Assembly (NCBI GenBank): GCA_036273515.1
Contig: DASUHM010000016.1
Location: 1 to 64,000, forward strand
Direction of reading: 5' to 3'
Origin: Gaiellales bacterium
GTDB lineage: Bacteria > Actinomycetota > Thermoleophilia > Gaiellales > JAICJC01
DNA length: 64,000 bases
The notes under the pieces were generated by a model. That model saw only the letters and a list, made by a program, of their open reading frames with translations. It did no database searches and had not been told where the DNA came from. Shown piece after piece: positions 15,322 through 24,834 of the stretch (position 1 is the first letter of the stretch; every line of letters starts with the position of its first letter). The translations under genes were made by a program, and so were the position numbers.

Positions 15322-15378
15322 CATCCGAGCCTCCCGTGAGGCTGTTTCTGCCACGAGACAGCCTGGGAGGCTCGGATG
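15322..15378 (+). promoter_or_regulatory. hairpin sequestering the transposase ribosome binding site and start codon
   Basis: CATCCGAGCCTCCC (15322-15335) is the exact reverse complement of GGGAGGCTCGGATG (15365-15378). The right arm holds both the Shine-Dalgarno GGGAGG (15365-15370) and the ATG at 15376. An inner stem AGGCTGT (15339-15345) / ACAGCCT (15358-15364) extends it. An mRNA that enters from outside, for example from trxA, would fold this whole stem and hide the start. A transcript begun inside the left arm would not. Confidence 0.75.
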
Positions 15379-16344
15379 AATGTGCACGGTAACGCCAAGC
15401 TCGGACCTGCTGGTCGGCGCGCACTGGTGGCGGCGGTTGAACGGGGCGCGTCGTTGCGGGAAGCGGCGGCGGTGTTCGGGGTGTCGCCGGCGACGGCGCA
15501 TCGGTGGTGGGTGCGGTGGCGGCAGGCGAGCGAGCCCCAGCGCTGCTCGCTCGCCTGTTTGGCTGACCGGTCGAGTCGACCGCATCGCAGTCCCCGCGTG
15601 CTGTCGCCCGACGTGCAGGCTCAGATATGCGCGGCCAGGCGGCGCAGCGGGTGGGGGCCGCGGTTGATCGCGGGTGAGGTCGGTCACCCACATCAGACGG
15701 TGTGGAAGGTACTTCACCGGCACGGCCTTTCCCGAGCTCCGCGGGCGGCGCGTGACCCGGCGCGCCGGTACGAGTGGCCGTGCCCGGGAGACCTCCTGCA
15801 TATGGACACCAAGCGCTACGCCCGATTCCTGCGCCCGGGCCACGCCGTCACCGGAGTCCGCGACAAGACTTTCGCCGAAAAACAGGCCCGGTGGGGCTAT
15901 GAGTATGCCCATACCATTGTCGATGACCACTCCCGCCTGGCCTACAGCGAGCTGCACCCCGATCAGCGCGCCGACACCGTCACCGCGTTCGTCGGGCGGG
16001 CGCTGGACTGGTTTGCCGCCCTGGGCGTACAGCCGCGGCGGATCATGTCCGACAACGCCTGGACCTACACCCACAACCGGTCGCTCGCTCGACTGCTCGC
16101 CCAGCACGGGATCCGCCACCTCCGGATCCGGCCCCACACGCCCCGCACCAACGGCAAGGTCGAGCGTTTCCACCAGACCATGAGCCGTGAATGGGCCTAC
16201 GGCGTCACCTACCGCGACCACCACGCCCGAGACCGCGCACTGCCATACTGGCTCGACTACTACAACCGGCAGAGACCACACAGCTCACTCGACGGCCGGC
16301 CACCCATCAGCCGCGTTCACAACCTGTGTGGGCAGGACACCTAG
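15376..16344 (+). CDS. IS481-family DDE transposase
   Basis: This 322-residue transposase has an N-terminal helix-turn-helix (GASLREAAAVFGVSPATAHRWW, about residues 19-40) and an rve integrase core. The catalytic acids are seen as Asp in LLHMDTKRYARF, Asp in IMSDNAWTY and Glu in TNGKVERFHQT. The GYEYAHTIVDDHSRLAY stretch is typical of IS481. The frame is intact. The TAG stop (16342-16344) is not inside the element but is provided by the CTAG of the right target duplication. Confidence 0.93.
   Translation: MNVHGNAKLGPAGRRALVAAVERGASLREAAAVFGVSPATAHRWWVRWRQASEPQRCSLACLADRSSRPHRSPRVLSPDVQAQICAARRRSGWGPRLIAGEVGHPHQTVWKVLHRHGLSRAPRAARDPARRYEWPCPGDLLHMDTKRYARFLRPGHAVTGVRDKTFAEKQARWGYEYAHTIVDDHSRLAYSELHPDQRADTVTAFVGRALDWFAALGVQPRRIMSDNAWTYTHNRSLARLLAQHGIRHLRIRPHTPRTNGKVERFHQTMSREWAYGVTYRDHHARDRALPYWLDYYNRQRPHSSLDGRPPISRVHNLCGQDT
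16314..16339 (-). repeat. right terminal inverted repeat of IS481 element
   Basis: This is the complement of the left end, with CGTTCACAAC as the inner conserved block and GGACA as the terminus. It overlaps the last codons of the transposase. Confidence 0.75.
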
Positions 16345-18976: not shown

Positions 18977-19004
18977 TGGACGCGGGGCCCGCAACTGGTA
19001 TGCT
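18977..19004 (+). promoter_or_regulatory. probable promoter of the cobalamin operon
   Basis: TATGCT at 18999-19004 fits a -10 element, with TGGACG at 18977-18982 as a possible -35 at 16-bp spacing. The transcript would start close to the 5' side of the riboswitch P1 stem. Confidence 0.5.
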
Positions 19005-19013
19005 CGCGACCCC

Positions 19014-19179
19014 GCGAGCGGTGAAGGGAAGCCGGTGCGAATCCGGCGCGGTCCCGCCGCTGTGAGGGCGTCCATCCGGCGCACCATGTGGTGGCCACTG
19101 GCCGAGAGGCCGGGAAGGTCAGCCGGACGGCCCGGGAACCCCGGGAAGCCGCGCCCGAGCCAGAAGACCTGCCGCTCGC
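19014..19179 (+). ncRNA. adenosylcobalamin-type riboswitch
   Basis: The closing stem is GCGAGCGG (19014-19021) with CCGCTCGC (19172-19179). Between them are the class hallmarks in order: GAAGGGAAGCCGGTGCGAA, the CGCGGTCCCGCCGCTGTGA block, GCCACTG (19094-19100) with CGGGAAGG shortly after, and GAGCCAGAAGACCTGCC near the 3' end. This matches the cobalamin (B12) riboswitch consensus. The expression platform between 19180 and 19214 contains CCTC segments able to pair with the GGAAGGAGG ribosome binding site, so translational control is likely. It precedes an operon of exported DUF4430 proteins and an ECF transporter. Confidence 0.93.
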
Positions 19180-19214
19180 CGAAACGACGACGCCTCTCGA
19201 GGAAGGAGGACACG

Positions 19215-19925
19215 TTGGCGAGAACTCGCCTCCACCGCCTGGCCATCCTGGTGGCCGTCTGGGCCGCCGGCCTGGCCGCCGCCCAGACCGCGGCCGCAGC
19301 CACACCCGTCCACGTCAAGGTGCGGGTGGAAGGGCCCGCGCACACCGTCACGCAGTCCCGGCAGGTCCCGATCACCGGGACGTTCGCCGGCCACAAGCTC
19401 TCCGGGCCGACCGCGCTCGGCGCGCTCCTGGCGGCCGGCAGGCACCGGCACTTCCCCGTCGGCCTCGAGTGGTTCGACTGCTGCGGGTTCTTCGTCGACT
19501 CGGTCGCGGGCGTGCCCGGCGACGCGACCCACTTCTGGGCGTTCAAGGTCGGGCACACGCTGTCGCAGATCGGCGCCGGCGCGGTGAAGGCGACGCCCGG
19601 GATGAGCGCGCTCTTCTACTACACGACCTTCGACCCCGACACGGGCGCGACCGAGCCGACGCTCGGCCTCGACCCGGCCAACCGGACGATCGCCCGCGGC
19701 GCCACCGTGACGTTCACGGTCTCTGAGTGGGACGACGCCGGCCACGGCTCGGCAGCGGGCGGCGCCTGGGTGAACGTGAGCGGCATCGCGACGCGGGCCG
19801 ACTCGGCCGGCCACCTGACGGTGCAGTTCACCCACACCGGCACGTTCCCGGTGAAGGCGACGCTCGCGGGCGCGATCCGCTCGCGCACGATATGGGTGCA
19901 CGTCACGCGTTCGGGCTCGTCCTGA
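19215..19925 (+). CDS. secreted DUF4430 (transcobalamin beta-domain-like) protein with Ig-like domain
   Basis: The 236-residue product starts at TTG 19215 behind a strong GGAAGGAGG. A signal peptide (about residues 1-29, RLAILVAVWAAGLAAAQTAAA) points to export. Residues 30-140 fit DUF4430: TALGALLAAG helix, WFDCCGFFVDSVAG strand, THFWAFKVGH and GMSALFYYTTF. This is the fold of the C-terminal domain of intrinsic factor and transcobalamin. Residues 150-236 form a beta-rich, Ig-like segment (GATVTFTVSEW, GHLTVQFTHTGTFPVKA). There is no anchor. As the first gene after a B12 riboswitch it is likely a corrinoid-binding exported protein. The family call is from motif pattern; binding is inferred. 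Confidence 0.75.
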   Translation: MARTRLHRLAILVAVWAAGLAAAQTAAAATPVHVKVRVEGPAHTVTQSRQVPITGTFAGHKLSGPTALGALLAAGRHRHFPVGLEWFDCCGFFVDSVAGVPGDATHFWAFKVGHTLSQIGAGAVKATPGMSALFYYTTFDPDTGATEPTLGLDPANRTIARGATVTFTVSEWDDAGHGSAAGGAWVNVSGIATRADSAGHLTVQFTHTGTFPVKATLAGAIRSRTIWVHVTRSGSS

Positions 19926-20770
19926 CGGCCGCGGCGGTCGCGGCCTGCGGGACGTCTCTGGCGAAGGCGCCGAGCGGGCCCCGGGCCGCGACCGTCACGA
20001 TCACCCGCGGGTTCGGGCAGCGGACGCTCTCCGCTGCCCGAGCCGCCCCCGGGCAGTCGGCGCTCATGGCCCTGCGCCGGGTCTCGCACGTGTCGACGAG
20101 CTACGGCGGCCGCTTCGTTCGGGCCATCGACGGGCTCGCCGGCGACCAGTCCCAGGGCATGGCCTGGCTCTACTTCGTGAACGGCATCCAGGCGAACGTG
20201 GGCTCGGCCGACTACCTGCTGCATCCGGGCGACCGGGAGTGGTGGGACTATCGCTACTGGAACGACCTGATCCAGGTGCCCGTGGCAATTGGCGCCTGGC
20301 CGGAGCCGTTCGTGCACGGCTACGGCGGCACCCGACCGGCGGTGAGCGTGACCGGGCCGGCGTGCGCCGGGCAGATTCGCGGCGCCCTGCACGCGGCGGG
20401 CGCGCATGTCGTGCGCACGAGCTCGGCCTGGTCGGTGCGGGTGGAGACGTTCGCCCAGGCCGCGTCGTCGCTCTCGGCGGGCGTCTGGCAGGGCCGCGGC
20501 CTGACCGTCTCGCTCGACGGCGGCCGCGTCATGGTCTACCGCGGCCGCCCCGGGCTGCGACCCGACCCGGCCGCGCATGCGGTGATCGCCGGCTGGCAAC
20601 CGGGCCCCGCGACGGGCAAGTCGGCCCAGGTCGTCGTCGCCGGCGACACCCGAGGCGCCGCCTGCGCCGCCGCGCACACCCTGGCGGCCGATCCGCGGGC
20701 GGTGCGCAGCGCCTACGCCGTCGCGCTGGACGCGTCCGGCCACGTGATCGCCTACGGTGGGAGACCGTGA
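19892..20770 (+). CDS. DUF4430 lipoprotein, likely corrinoid-binding
   Basis: The 292-residue product begins with a lipoprotein signal whose lipobox is VAAC (Cys19), so it should sit on the outer membrane-facing surface. Residues 35-125 are a clear DUF4430 domain, with GGRFVRAIDGLAG, MAWLYFVNGIQANVGSADY and PGDREWWDYRYW. The remaining 165 residues form a second domain (PAVSVTGPACAGQIRGALHAAGAHV onward) that I do not recognise. The ATG at 19892 lies inside the upstream gene, giving a 34-bp overlap. It would capture B12 and hand it to the ECF transporter encoded next. Confidence 0.78.
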   Translation: MGARHAFGLVLTAAAVAACGTSLAKAPSGPRAATVTITRGFGQRTLSAARAAPGQSALMALRRVSHVSTSYGGRFVRAIDGLAGDQSQGMAWLYFVNGIQANVGSADYLLHPGDREWWDYRYWNDLIQVPVAIGAWPEPFVHGYGGTRPAVSVTGPACAGQIRGALHAAGAHVVRTSSAWSVRVETFAQAASSLSAGVWQGRGLTVSLDGGRVMVYRGRPGLRPDPAAHAVIAGWQPGPATGKSAQVVVAGDTRGAACAAAHTLAADPRAVRSAYAVALDASGHVIAYGGRP

Positions 20771-21591
20771 AGCCGCTGCCCGCAGCGCTCGTCACCGGGC
20801 CGCCGCTGCTCGCCGCGATCGCGGCGTGGAGCCCGCTCTGGCTCGCCGCGGCCACGATCGGCGCGGCGCTCCTCCTGGCCGCCGCGCCCCCGCCCCGGCG
20901 GCTGTACGCGCTCACGGCGATCGGTTCGGGCGTGGTCGTGTTCGCGATCAACCCGTTCGTCTCGGTGCAGGGGCTGACGGTGCTCTGGCAGGGGCCGCAC
21001 ATCCCGATCCTCGACACCCAGGTGACGGTGGAGGAGGTGGCCTACGGCGCCGGCGCCGGCATGCGCGTGGCCGCCTCGGCCCTGGCCGTCGCGGCGTTCG
21101 TGCGGCTGGCCGACCCCGACCTCCTGCTGCGCGCGTTCTCGCGGGTCGCGCCGCGCTCGGCCATGGTCGCCGCGCTCGCCACCCGCATGCTGCCCGCGCT
21201 CGAGCGCGACGCGGGCGGGATCGTCACGGCCGCCCGCACCCGCGCCGCCCGGATGAGCAAGCCGCGCACCGCCGCCGGCCTGCTCGGCCCGCTGCTCGCG
21301 AGCTCGCTCGAGCGCTCGCTCTCGGTGGCCGAGGCGATGGAGGCGCGCGGATACGGCTCGTCGGTGCGGACGCGGGCCCCGGAGCGGGCGACGACGGGAC
21401 GCGAGCGGGCGCTCGCCGGAATCGGCGGGTGCGCGCTCGTGCTGGTCGCCGGAGCGCTGATCGGCGGCGCGACCGACTTCCGCTACTACGACACGCTGGG
21501 CGACCCGTGGCAGCCGGCCGCGATCGCCGGCGCCTGCCTGCTCCTGGCCCTCCTGGGCGCGGCCGCGGCGGTGGTGCGATGGCCGCGCTGA
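20767..21591 (+). CDS. ecfT: ECF transporter transmembrane component (EcfT/CbiQ family)
   Basis: EcfT is the membrane scaffold that links the substrate-binding S component to the two ATPases. The 274-residue protein has hydrophobic segments around residues 5-35 and 45-65, a long cytoplasmic helical part with the coupling motif EAMEARGYGSS, and two C-terminal helices. GTG 20767 overlaps the preceding stop by 4 bp. The neighbouring A and S genes and the riboswitch mark it as a dedicated B12-type ECF system rather than a shared group II module. Confidence 0.88.
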   Translation: MKPLPAALVTGPPLLAAIAAWSPLWLAAATIGAALLLAAAPPPRRLYALTAIGSGVVVFAINPFVSVQGLTVLWQGPHIPILDTQVTVEEVAYGAGAGMRVAASALAVAAFVRLADPDLLLRAFSRVAPRSAMVAALATRMLPALERDAGGIVTAARTRAARMSKPRTAAGLLGPLLASSLERSLSVAEAMEARGYGSSVRTRAPERATTGRERALAGIGGCALVLVAGALIGGATDFRYYDTLGDPWQPAAIAGACLLLALLGAAAAVVRWPR

Positions 21592-23171
21592 GCTTCGAGC
21601 GCGTCTCCTACGCCTACCCGGGCGCAGACCGGCCGGCGCTCGACGGCATCGACCTCGAGATCGAGGCGGGGCAGCTCGTGCTCCTGGTCGGCGGGTCGGG
21701 ATCGGGTAAGTCGACGCTCCTGCGGGCGGCGCTCGGCCTCGTGCCCCACTTCCACGGCGGCGAGCTGCGGGGGCGCGTGCGCGTCGCGGGCCTCGACACG
21801 CGCGAGCACCGGCCGGGCGCGCTGGCCCGCCACGTCGGGCTGGTGTTCCAGGACCCGGAGTCGCAGCTCGTGATGGGCCGGCCCGACCGCGAGGCCGCGT
21901 TCGGCCTCGAGAACCTGGGCTACCCCGCGGGCGAGATCGCCGTCCGCGCCCGCGAGGCGCTGGCCGCGGTGGGCGCCGCCGGGCTGGCCGGGCGGCCGGC
22001 GGCCGCCCTCTCGGGTGGCGAGGCCCAGCGGGTTGCCATCGCGTCGGTGCTCGCGATGGGGCAGCCGCTCCTGCTCCTGGACGAGCCGACGAGCCAGCTC
22101 GACCCGGTCGCAGCCGAAGAGCTGCTCGGCCTGGTCGTGCGGATCAACCGCGACCGCGGCGTCACCGTCGTCCTGGCCGAGCACCGCACCGGCCGCCTGT
22201 TCGCCGAGGCCGACCGCGTGATCGCGATGGAGGACGGTCGCCTCACGGTCGACGCGGCGCCGCCGGTTGCGGCCCGGGCGCTCGCGACGAGCGCGCCGTG
22301 GATGCTCCCGCCGGTGACGCAGGCCTTCGCCCGCGCGGGCCGCGCCGAGCTGCCGCTGACCGTGCGCGCGGCCCGCGCGCTGGTCACCGCGGCGCCGGCT
22401 GCCGCAGCCGCGCCACTGCCGGCGGCGGAGGCGGCGGCCGGCGCCGTCAAGGCGCACAAGCGGCTCGGCGACGTCGACGCGCTGGCCGGCACGTCCACGG
22501 CCTTCGAGCGCGGTCGCGTCACCGCTCTGATCGGCGAGAACGGGGCCGGCAAGACGACGCTCGCGCGCGCCGTGTGCGGCCTCCTCGACCTCGACCGCGG
22601 CCGGATCGAGCCCGCCCCTGACCGGGCCGGATACGTCGGCCAGGATCCGTCCCACTACCTGCTCCACGACACCGCCCGCGACGAGGTCGCCTACGCGCTT
22701 CGCAACCTGGGCGTGCCCGGGCCGGAGCGCGACCGCCGAGTGACCGCCGCGCTCGCCCGCCTCGGCCTCGACGGCTTCGGCGTCCGTCACCCCCGCGACC
22801 TCTCGAGCGGCGAACGCCAGCGGCTGGCGATCGCGACCGTGACGGTGATGGAGCCCGAGCTGCTCGTGCTCGACGAGCCGACCCGCGGCGTCGACGGCCT
22901 GCGCAAGCTCGCCCTCGTCGAGCTGGTCCGGTCGCTCGCGGCCGACGGGACCGCGGTCGTCGTCGTCACCCACGACATGGACTTCGCCGCCGAGGCCGCC
23001 GACACCGTGACGAGCATGGCGGCCGGCCGCGTCCTGTCCGACCGGGCGCCGCGGACGCTGCTCGCGTCGGGCATCTTCTTCGTCTCCCAGCTCGGCCTCG
23101 CGCTGGGCCGGGCCTCGCAGGCGGACGCCGTCGCATTCCTGACCGAACCCCTGGAGGCAGCCCATGTTTAA
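21579..23171 (+). CDS. ECF transporter ATPase with two fused ABC domains
   Basis: This 530-residue protein combines the EcfA and EcfA' ATPases in one chain. Domain 1 has Walker A GGSGSGKST (about residues 40-48), Q-loop FQDPESQLVMG, LSGGEAQR and LLLLDEPTSQLDP. Domain 2 (from about residue 295) has IGENGAGKTT, GQDPSHYLL, LSSGERQR, LVLDEPTRGVD and the H-loop VTHDMD. An Ala-rich linker joins them. The start overlaps ecfT by 13 bp. The last codons precede a 182-bp gap before the S component. Confidence 0.9.
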   Translation: MAALSFERVSYAYPGADRPALDGIDLEIEAGQLVLLVGGSGSGKSTLLRAALGLVPHFHGGELRGRVRVAGLDTREHRPGALARHVGLVFQDPESQLVMGRPDREAAFGLENLGYPAGEIAVRAREALAAVGAAGLAGRPAAALSGGEAQRVAIASVLAMGQPLLLLDEPTSQLDPVAAEELLGLVVRINRDRGVTVVLAEHRTGRLFAEADRVIAMEDGRLTVDAAPPVAARALATSAPWMLPPVTQAFARAGRAELPLTVRAARALVTAAPAAAAAPLPAAEAAAGAVKAHKRLGDVDALAGTSTAFERGRVTALIGENGAGKTTLARAVCGLLDLDRGRIEPAPDRAGYVGQDPSHYLLHDTARDEVAYALRNLGVPGPERDRRVTAALARLGLDGFGVRHPRDLSSGERQRLAIATVTVMEPELLVLDEPTRGVDGLRKLALVELVRSLAADGTAVVVVTHDMDFAAEAADTVTSMAAGRVLSDRAPRTLLASGIFFVSQLGLALGRASQADAVAFLTEPLEAAHV

Positions 23172-23353
23172 ACCCATGGTTCCCCCACGAGCCCCCTCCT
23201 TGGGGGGCGTGGCGGACCGCCGGTGGCGCTCCGACGAGAACGCGGTCACGCCTCCGCCACGCAGGCCTCGTCCTCGATCAGGGATCGAATCCTGGGCCAG
23301 GCCGGCCTCAGCCGAGGATTTGCTCACAAGGTCGCAGGTGGAAGGAACTGCGA
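23172..23353 (+). other. 182-bp gap with a strong GC hairpin inside the ECF operon
   Basis: The main feature is an inverted repeat near 23189-23216, with CCACG and GCCCCC on the left and GGGGGGC and GTGG on the right of a TCCTT loop. No T-tract follows, and no B12-riboswitch boxes are present. A possible 65-codon frame (23164-23361) looks non-coding. The hairpin might set expression of the S component apart from the T and A genes, or stabilise mRNA ends. A GGAAGGA just before 23354 serves the next gene. Confidence 0.45.
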
Positions 23354-23959
23354 ATGGCTAGCGACACCGTCGCGCTGGCGCTGCTGGCCGCGATCGCGCT
23401 CGGCCTCGTCGCCATCGAGACCGGCCCCAGCCGCACCCGTGAGCTCGCGCTGGTCGCCGCGTTGGCTGCCGCCGCGGCGGGAGGACGGGTGCTCTTCGCT
23501 GCCGTCCCCAACGTCCAGCCGGTGACGATGATCGTGGCGGTGACCGGCATCAGCCTCGGCGCGCGGGCCGGCCTCGCCACCGGCGCGGCGGCGGCGCTCG
23601 CATCGAACGCGTTCCTCGGCCAGGGGCCGTGGACGCCCTGGCAGATGGCCGGCTGGGCGCTCGTCGGCGTGACCGCGGCGGGGCTCGGCCCGGCCCTGCG
23701 CAACCGGCCCGCGCTGGCCCTCTACGGCATCGCCGCGGGATTCCTCTTCGACTGGCTGATGGACGTCTGGGCGTGGTCGTCGCTCGGCGGCGGCTCGACG
23801 TCCTTCATCGCCCTCGTCTCGACCGGGATCTGGTTCGACGTGGCCCACGCCGCCGGCAACGTGATTCTGGCCGTCGTGGCCGGCCCGACCCTGATCCGCA
23901 TGCTCGACCGCTACGCCCGCAAGCTGCACGGCACCTTCGTCCCACTGGAGCAGACATGA
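23354..23959 (+). CDS. ECF transporter S component, probably cobalamin-specific
   Basis: The 201-residue protein has about six hydrophobic helices (residues 5-20, 30-50, 55-75, 90-115, 120-140, 155-180), the size and layout of ECF S components. NVQPVTMIVAVTGISLGARAGLATGAAAAL and LFDWLMDVWAW fit the S-component family used for B12 or precursors. Specificity is inferred from the B12 riboswitch and DUF4430 neighbours. ATG 23354 follows GGAAGGA; the stop overlaps the next ATG (ATGA). Confidence 0.82.
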   Translation: MASDTVALALLAAIALGLVAIETGPSRTRELALVAALAAAAAGGRVLFAAVPNVQPVTMIVAVTGISLGARAGLATGAAAALASNAFLGQGPWTPWQMAGWALVGVTAAGLGPALRNRPALALYGIAAGFLFDWLMDVWAWSSLGGGSTSFIALVSTGIWFDVAHAAGNVILAVVAGPTLIRMLDRYARKLHGTFVPLEQT

Positions 23960-24834
23960 AGACCACAACGACCCTCGTCGCCGCACTCGCCCTCCTCCTC
24001 GCCACCGCCACGGCCGCGAACGCCGCCACGGCCACCCACTACCTGCTCTCCCGCCAGACCGCCTCGGGCGGGTTCGCGGAGTCCGGCAGCGGCACGCCGA
24101 GCGCCACCGTGACCGAGTGGGCCATGATGGGGCTGCGCGCCGCCGGCATCGCGCCGGCCGGCGTCCACCGCAGCGGCGGCAGGACCGCCATCGCCTACCT
24201 CGCGTCGCAGGCGGGCTCGTGGTCGAACGCATACGACCTCGAGAAGGGCATCCTGGCCATCGTCGCCGCCCGCCGGAACCCGGCGGCGTTCGCGGGCCGC
24301 AACCTGGTCGCCGCGCTGCGCGGCAAGATCGGCAGCCACGGCGGCATCGGCTCCGCGGCCAACTCGACCTACTGGGGCGTGCTCGCCCTGCGCGCGGCCG
24401 GCTCGCCGGTGCCTGCCCGGACGCTCTCCTACATCCGCTCGCGGCGGCACCGGAACGGCGGCTACGCCTGGTCGATCTCGGCCGCGCCGGACTCGAACGA
24501 CACCGCTGCGGCCGTGCTCGCCCTGCACGCCGCCGGCGTCGGGTGCGGGAACGTCGCCATCTCGCGCGGCATCGCCTACCTGGGCAGCGCGCAGGGCTCC
24601 TCGCACGGGTACGCGCTCCTGCCCGGCAGCGCGGCCGACAGCCAGTCGACGTCGTGGGCGATCCAGGCCCGGCATGCCTGCGGCCTGCGCAACGCCCGCG
24701 CCCGCCGCTGGCTGCTCGCCCGCCGGCTGCCGAGCGGCGCCTACAACTACCAGCCCGGCACGACGATCACGCCGGCGTTCGTGACCGCCCAGGTGCTCCC
24801 GGCCGTGCACGGCCGCTGGTATCCGATCCGCTGA
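23956..24834 (+). CDS. secreted alpha/alpha-barrel protein, prenyltransferase/transcobalamin alpha-domain-like
   Basis: The 292-residue product has a signal peptide (LVAALALLLATATAANA, cleavage near residue 23). It then shows repeated helix pairs with the prenyltransferase/squalene-cyclase repeat pattern: HYLLSRQTASGGFAE, AIAYLASQAGSW, YIRSRRHRNGGYAW, DTAAAVLALHAAG, GIAYLGSAQGSSHGYAL, STSWAIQARHACG and WLLARRLPSGAYNY. The alpha6/alpha6 barrel of this type is also the N-terminal domain of intrinsic factor and transcobalamin. Being coupled by ATGA to a B12-type S component, it is a candidate extracellular corrinoid-binding partner of the DUF4430 proteins. No catalytic DXDD or Cys/His zinc site is evident, which argues against an enzyme. 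Confidence 0.7.
   Translation: MKTTTTLVAALALLLATATAANAATATHYLLSRQTASGGFAESGSGTPSATVTEWAMMGLRAAGIAPAGVHRSGGRTAIAYLASQAGSWSNAYDLEKGILAIVAARRNPAAFAGRNLVAALRGKIGSHGGIGSAANSTYWGVLALRAAGSPVPARTLSYIRSRRHRNGGYAWSISAAPDSNDTAAAVLALHAAGVGCGNVAISRGIAYLGSAQGSSHGYALLPGSAADSQSTSWAIQARHACGLRNARARRWLLARRLPSGAYNYQPGTTITPAFVTAQVLPAVHGRWYPIR

Follow-up and report, generated by a model that had tools for sequence, protein, structure and literature searches.

Energy-coupling factor (ECF) transporters are not known to require an extracytoplasmic binding protein. Import of cobalamin and cobinamide has been demonstrated for ECF-CbrT of Lactobacillus delbrueckii (structure 6FNP; PMC5997447). Surface corrinoid capture on behalf of a transporter has been described for BtuG and BtuH of Bacteroides (PMC6143338, PMC8941943), where BtuG serves the outer-membrane BtuB transporters of these Gram-negative bacteria (PMC6143338), and in Eubacterium siraeum a homologue of btuH has been noted close to an ECF-like cobamide transporter (PMC8941943). 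Recognising the B12 transporters of many gut genomes has been called an open problem (PMC6593275). Here we analyse a stretch of 64,000 nucleotides (in the following, the window) from a Gaiellales bacterium (contig DASUHM010000016.1), which encodes a CbrT-type ECF transporter together with three exported proteins: two with the domain DUF4430, named DUFa and DUFb, and an alpha/alpha-barrel protein. We consider it likely that this is a B12-repressed corrinoid-scavenging operon, in which DUFb works with ECF-CbrT, and DUFa and the barrel form a second, transcobalamin-like pair that delivers corrinoid.

The operon is preceded by a cobalamin riboswitch (RF00174, positions 18996-19174, plus strand) that scored 69.6 bits (E 4e-15, model positions 18-173 of 189), exceeding the gathering score of 31.5, and is the only RF00174 copy in the 4.07-Mb genome. 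The riboswitch is followed by six genes in the same orientation, whose starts were set by reading the sequence. These are DUFa (19215-19925), a secreted DUF4430 protein with a TTG start and a signal peptide; DUFb (19892-20770), a DUF4430 lipoprotein with the lipobox VAAC; the transmembrane component EcfT (20767-21591; CbiQ PF02361, 57.2 bits); the fused ATPases EcfA-A' (21579-23171), with two ABC_tran stretches and a TIGR04520 score of 318.3 bits, above the cut-off; the S component (23354-23959); and the exported barrel protein (23956-24834). All six frames are open with a third-position GC content of 0.92-0.97, and genes overlap at four of the five junctions, the EcfA/S junction being a 182-nucleotide spacer. 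This is the gene content named in an original prediction made for this DNA, every item of which proved right.

The S component had no Pfam match and no meaningful NCBIfam match. A family profile built from 24 homologues identified chain A of 6FNP, which is CbrT, at 98.5 bits (E 3.2e-27), while the next match reached 16.8 bits; positions 25-192 of 201 of the profile aligned to 7-176 of 182 of the chain (168 positions). By this comparison the S component is a CbrT homologue, which removes the main doubt about the ligand. Its nearest named relatives are from Thermoleophilia metagenome genomes. With EcfT and two ATPases adjoining it the ECF transporter gene set is complete, and the riboswitch and the CbrT homology together support a dedicated cobalamin ECF transporter, as the original prediction had proposed. 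The S family and the type of ECF module are those of the L. delbrueckii system, to which the window adds its own EcfT, the fused EcfA-A', the cobalamin riboswitch and the three exported partners; no mention of exported partners of this kind was found in the available portion of the ECF-CbrT paper (PMC5997447).

Of the two DUF4430 proteins, DUFb matched PF14478 at 47.9 bits, above the Pfam cut-off of 23.8 bits, and DUFa by itself remained sub-threshold at 19.3 bits. Profile comparison of the two nevertheless revealed a common domain (hhalign, 97.9%, E 3e-13), located in DUFa at residues 63-140 approximately, between the signal peptide and a further beta domain. There are exactly two PF14478 matches in the window's genome, both inside the operon. 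The lipobox cysteine of DUFb is invariant across 21 homologues, and the N-termini of DUFa and the barrel read as signal peptides. A structural model of DUFb (predicted local distance difference test, pLDDT, 88.3) matched 3u7z first in Foldseek, followed by intrinsic factor, haptocorrin and transcobalamin, and the probability was 1.00 for each of the four; 3u7z is RUMGNA_00854 of R. gnavus, named only as a putative metal-binding protein. It was fold comparison alone that found the carriers for DUFb, whose sequence profile found none of them in the PDB. For DUFa, a single-sequence search of the PDB gave no match, and the family profile gave weak top matches to transcobalamin-2 (best E 0.068). 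These results support the view that the exported DUF4430 proteins have the fold of the beta domain of intrinsic factor and transcobalamin, as had been claimed for the C-terminal domain of these carriers. Among the weaker Foldseek matches of the DUFb model was BcsB. In the window's family DUFb also carries a C-terminal alpha/beta domain past DUF4430 (residues 150-290 approximately), which is shorter or different in family f3.

The second half of an animal B12 carrier is an alpha/alpha barrel, and here natural gene fusions are informative. At Firmicutes CbrT loci barrel and DUF4430 are joined in one protein, in the order of intrinsic factor, and the barrel of the window is homologous to that of the barrel-DUF4430 fusions (hhalign, 99.4%, E 5.5e-22). 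In locus L123 Pfam confirmed the arrangement barrel-DUF4430-SLH; L147 shows the same with the barrel sub-threshold, L071 encodes DUF4430-SLH, and L083 combines two DUF4430 domains and a sub-threshold barrel with an LPXTG anchor. We modelled the natural barrel-DUF4430 segment from L123 (pLDDT 86.2, predicted template modelling score 0.66). The top 15 PDB matches of this model, each of them a transcobalamin, a haptocorrin or an intrinsic factor, had E values from 5e-11 to 3e-8 over about 420 columns, and cyclases and prenyltransferases ranked after the carriers, from E 2e-5. The model has an alpha/alpha barrel followed by DUF4430, the order of barrel and ubiquitin-like beta domain in the animal carriers, and its domains match transcobalamin one by one with a different relative placement. 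At six loci (L098, L115, L121, L125, L128, L137) one open frame encodes both S component and barrel, which are separated by a hydrophobic stretch (mean hydropathy 1.4-2.5 over 19 residues). This linker looks as if the signal peptide of the barrel had turned into a seventh membrane helix with the barrel outside, and such a fusion would physically hold the barrel at the external side of the S component. The prediction that both halves of the animal carrier are present is supported in part, by the fold of the DUF4430 proteins and by a barrel homologous to that of fusions with the domain order of the carriers; the Pfam family of the carriers does not recognise the barrel (see below). That the system is split is true of the window, which carries the halves as separate genes, and is only one among several arrangements, given the fusions elsewhere.

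We then compared 129 genomes of the order, 43 of them near-complete. Of the 129, 69 encode the S component and 63 encode the barrel, and co-occurrence was strong by Fisher tests uncorrected for shared ancestry (p 1e-22 for S with DUF4430, p 4e-25 for S with barrel). Gene order is kept among relatives, and among loci with an intact 5' end the operon was preceded by a cobalamin riboswitch in 25 of 26, the exception being L058 of family f4. This conservation places the arrangement far beyond chance and agrees with the co-occurrence that the original prediction had proposed as a check. Some relatives have a reduced operon: L050, L179 and L180 encode riboswitch-DUFb-EcfT-EcfA-S without DUFa and barrel, L058 likewise lacks these two, and L181 resembles the reduced form on a contig that ends early. 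No complete Thermoleophilia locus was found with only one of DUFa and barrel, save in genus g14, whose barrel gene is found outside the operon while DUFa, DUFb, CbrT and riboswitch are still together. Since DUFa and barrel are missing jointly, we infer that these two act as a pair, the basic partner of ECF-CbrT being DUFb; the joint losses may represent few evolutionary events.

Beyond the order, screening genome contigs for the S profile yielded 80 named loci, a biased sample as they were picked by similarity, which span Thermoleophilia, Clostridia, Bacilli, an Armatimonadetes and archaeal metagenome-assembled genomes. Local profiles found DUF4430 at 73 of these 80 CbrT loci, the barrel at 69 and both in one frame at 48; several of the loci without DUF4430 sit on short contigs. 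Coordinate comparison in 26 of these genomes placed most DUF4430 matches within the CbrT locus, and one match outside it, in L149, lies directly 5' of a second CbrT-like gene. Second CbrT-like genes with their own DUF4430 protein alongside were seen in some Firmicutes (L100, L149). Two loci labelled archaeal (L085, Aciduliprofundum; L132, Euryarchaeota) encode CbrT, an ECF module and DUF4430 but no barrel. Cobalamin riboswitches were present at 15 of the 27 distant loci scanned, and those without one mostly miss the 5' end of the operon or are archaeal or lactobacillar.

The genome of the organism encodes the B12-dependent enzymes NrdJ and MetH and lacks CbiC, which marks de novo synthesis of corrin. 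Judged from its gene content, the organism should need B12 and should not make corrin, i.e. it would be a cobamide auxotroph. Together with the riboswitch, these markers lend indirect support to binding of cobalamin or cobinamide by the CbrT-family S component. Within the order CbiC was found in 3 of 129 genomes (2 of the 43 near-complete ones) and NrdJ-type reductase matches in 102 of 129 (40 of 43), while 78 of 129 have a MetH B12 domain. In some relatives (e.g. G062:C1, G122:C119, G058:C17) the NrdJ matches are split within single long frames, at profile positions of about 282 and 459, which suggests inteins.

From these observations the following mechanism can be proposed. When B12 is scarce the riboswitch would permit expression of the operon, repression being the usual mode of RF00174 riboswitches. 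DUFb, located at the external surface of the membrane, would collect corrinoid and cooperate with ECF-CbrT. DUFa and the barrel, by analogy to the animal carriers, might serve as beta and alpha halves, each on one face of the corrinoid, and close around it. Delivery would be favoured by the barrel lying close to the external opening of CbrT, and the captured corrinoid would be handed to CbrT, which would topple, with EcfT and EcfA-A' energising import.

Several observations weigh against this proposal, and other explanations of the exported proteins have to be considered alongside it. CbrT and its ECF module were functional in E. coli without these accessory proteins, the membrane S component alone sufficing there (PMC5997447). 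The exported proteins could then be scaffolds or wall-attachment parts with generic folds that bind no corrinoid while B12 is imported, and the SLH or LPXTG anchors on several of the fusions would fit such a role. We regard this as unlikely, because the window proteins have no wall anchor, an independent lipoprotein is present, and the two folds of a known carrier would hardly recur by chance in the same order at cobalamin-transporter loci. The arrangement of the folds is itself a point of doubt: the ligand-free L123 model lacks inter-domain closure, with a template modelling score of about 0.4 and a root-mean-square deviation of 21 A, and a check of the predicted interface between barrel and DUF4430 on this fusion thus yielded agreement with transcobalamin domain by domain and not as one rigid arrangement. 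The open model is not decisive, since it contains no ligand and the association of carrier domains is cobalamin-dependent. In rat transcobalamin the isolated alpha and beta domains are each able to bind cobalamin and associate in its presence (PMC11107200), which makes a split carrier physically plausible.

The barrel raises further objections. Its nearest sequence relatives are squalene-hopene cyclases, found by its family profile at E 1.7e-31, its match to Prenyltrans (26.2 bits) is just below the threshold of 26.5, and PF01122 (Cobalamin_bind) misses it, with no match at E 1 in its own genome and none above the cut-off in seven others. An enzyme akin to squalene/terpene cyclases or prenyltransferases, acting on a lipid or on the corrinoid, would account for its best sequence matches, which are to squalene-hopene cyclases and prenyltransferases (Prenyltrans/SQHop), and for the visible relic of a DxDDTA motif. 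At the catalytic acid of DxDD, however, the window protein has Asn, as do 17 of 23 homologues, with Gly in two and Asp in four; the catalytic Asp of squalene-hopene cyclases is thus lacking, which makes a cyclase improbable. Moreover, squalene-hopene-type cyclases are two-domain proteins, whereas this is an exported single barrel, and barrels of this family are fused to DUF4430 and to CbrT. An enzymatic role therefore appears very unlikely to us. The remaining objection comes from g14, where the barrel gene outside the operon is divergent to FUR, CbiM, CbiQ and EcfA-type genes, i.e. it neighbours cobalt/nickel ECF transporter genes (L053 3325-7739; likewise L055 and L062). Together with the putative metal-binding label of 3u7z, a solved bacterial DUF4430-like protein, this could indicate capture of free cobalt, nickel, a precursor or another non-corrinoid ligand. 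We judge this highly improbable, as the operon holds a cobalamin riboswitch and CbrT, as g14 itself keeps the other components with both, and as no riboswitch for another ligand adjoined the operon at any of the 27 distant loci. Corrinoid capture by the exported proteins remains, as said, the reading we consider likely.

Parts of this system have been noted before. A proteome study of Lacticaseibacillus annotated an 'additional lipoprotein component of putative cobalamin ECF transporter', and also reported a DUF4430 protein gene adjoining rtpR, the gene of a B12-dependent reductase (PMC9963975). We infer that both refer to one gene. Like DUFb this lipoprotein is annotated beside a putative cobalamin ECF transporter; its structure, ligand and a barrel partner are undescribed there. 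BtuG and BtuH do the job that we propose here, but the B12-binding domain of BtuH has no known structural homologues (PMC8941943), unlike the folds in the window. With vertebrate intrinsic factor, transcobalamin and haptocorrin both domain folds appear to be shared, and their order is shared by the bacterial fusions. The window differs in that the halves are separate polypeptides attached to an importer, the barrel is outside PF01122, and the holding of corrinoid is putative; vertebrate carriers hand over to receptors, the window system would hand over to a transporter. Literature on DUF4430, CbrT accessory proteins and bacterial relatives of transcobalamin contained no account of the system, in a search that left out most subscription papers. 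The transcobalamin-like capture layer, its fusions and its link to CbrT therefore appear to be undescribed in the literature searched, where six papers mention DUF4430. The statement in the original prediction that no described Gram-positive system with this exact set was known appears to hold for this layer and needs to be restricted for CbrT (PMC5997447) and the Lacticaseibacillus lipoprotein annotation (PMC9963975), which were already known, as were the Bacteroides surface B12 binders.

A second structured RNA was considered for the 182-nucleotide EcfA/S spacer. It had no Rfam match, folded only modestly better than shuffled sequences (z -2.16) and, though alignable in the nearest relative, was less conserved than its neighbours, and we take it as plain spacer. 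About 2.6 kb 5' of the operon lies an IS481-type transposase gene (15376-16344, plus strand; rve, rve_3, LZ_Tnp_IS481), and a pair of overlapping sodium/calcium exchanger genes (PF01699; 24838-27029, minus strand) is convergent to this operon.

Taken further, the findings suggest that the animal mode of holding B12 is also present in bacteria, and it may have begun there. Whether ECF-CbrT transporters of Gram-positives and some archaea are generally served by transcobalamin-type capture proteins, from which the animal two-domain carriers descend or with which they share an ancestor, is in our view evenly balanced; under this ancestral reading the halves would still be found separate, fused together, or fused to the transporter. 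If the exported proteins do capture corrinoid, they would be a Gram-positive counterpart to the surface B12 binders of Bacteroides, and a widespread domain of unknown function, DUF4430, would be explained. The system would then represent a relative of intrinsic factor and transcobalamin in bacteria, and as it is split, the two halves could be tested singly.

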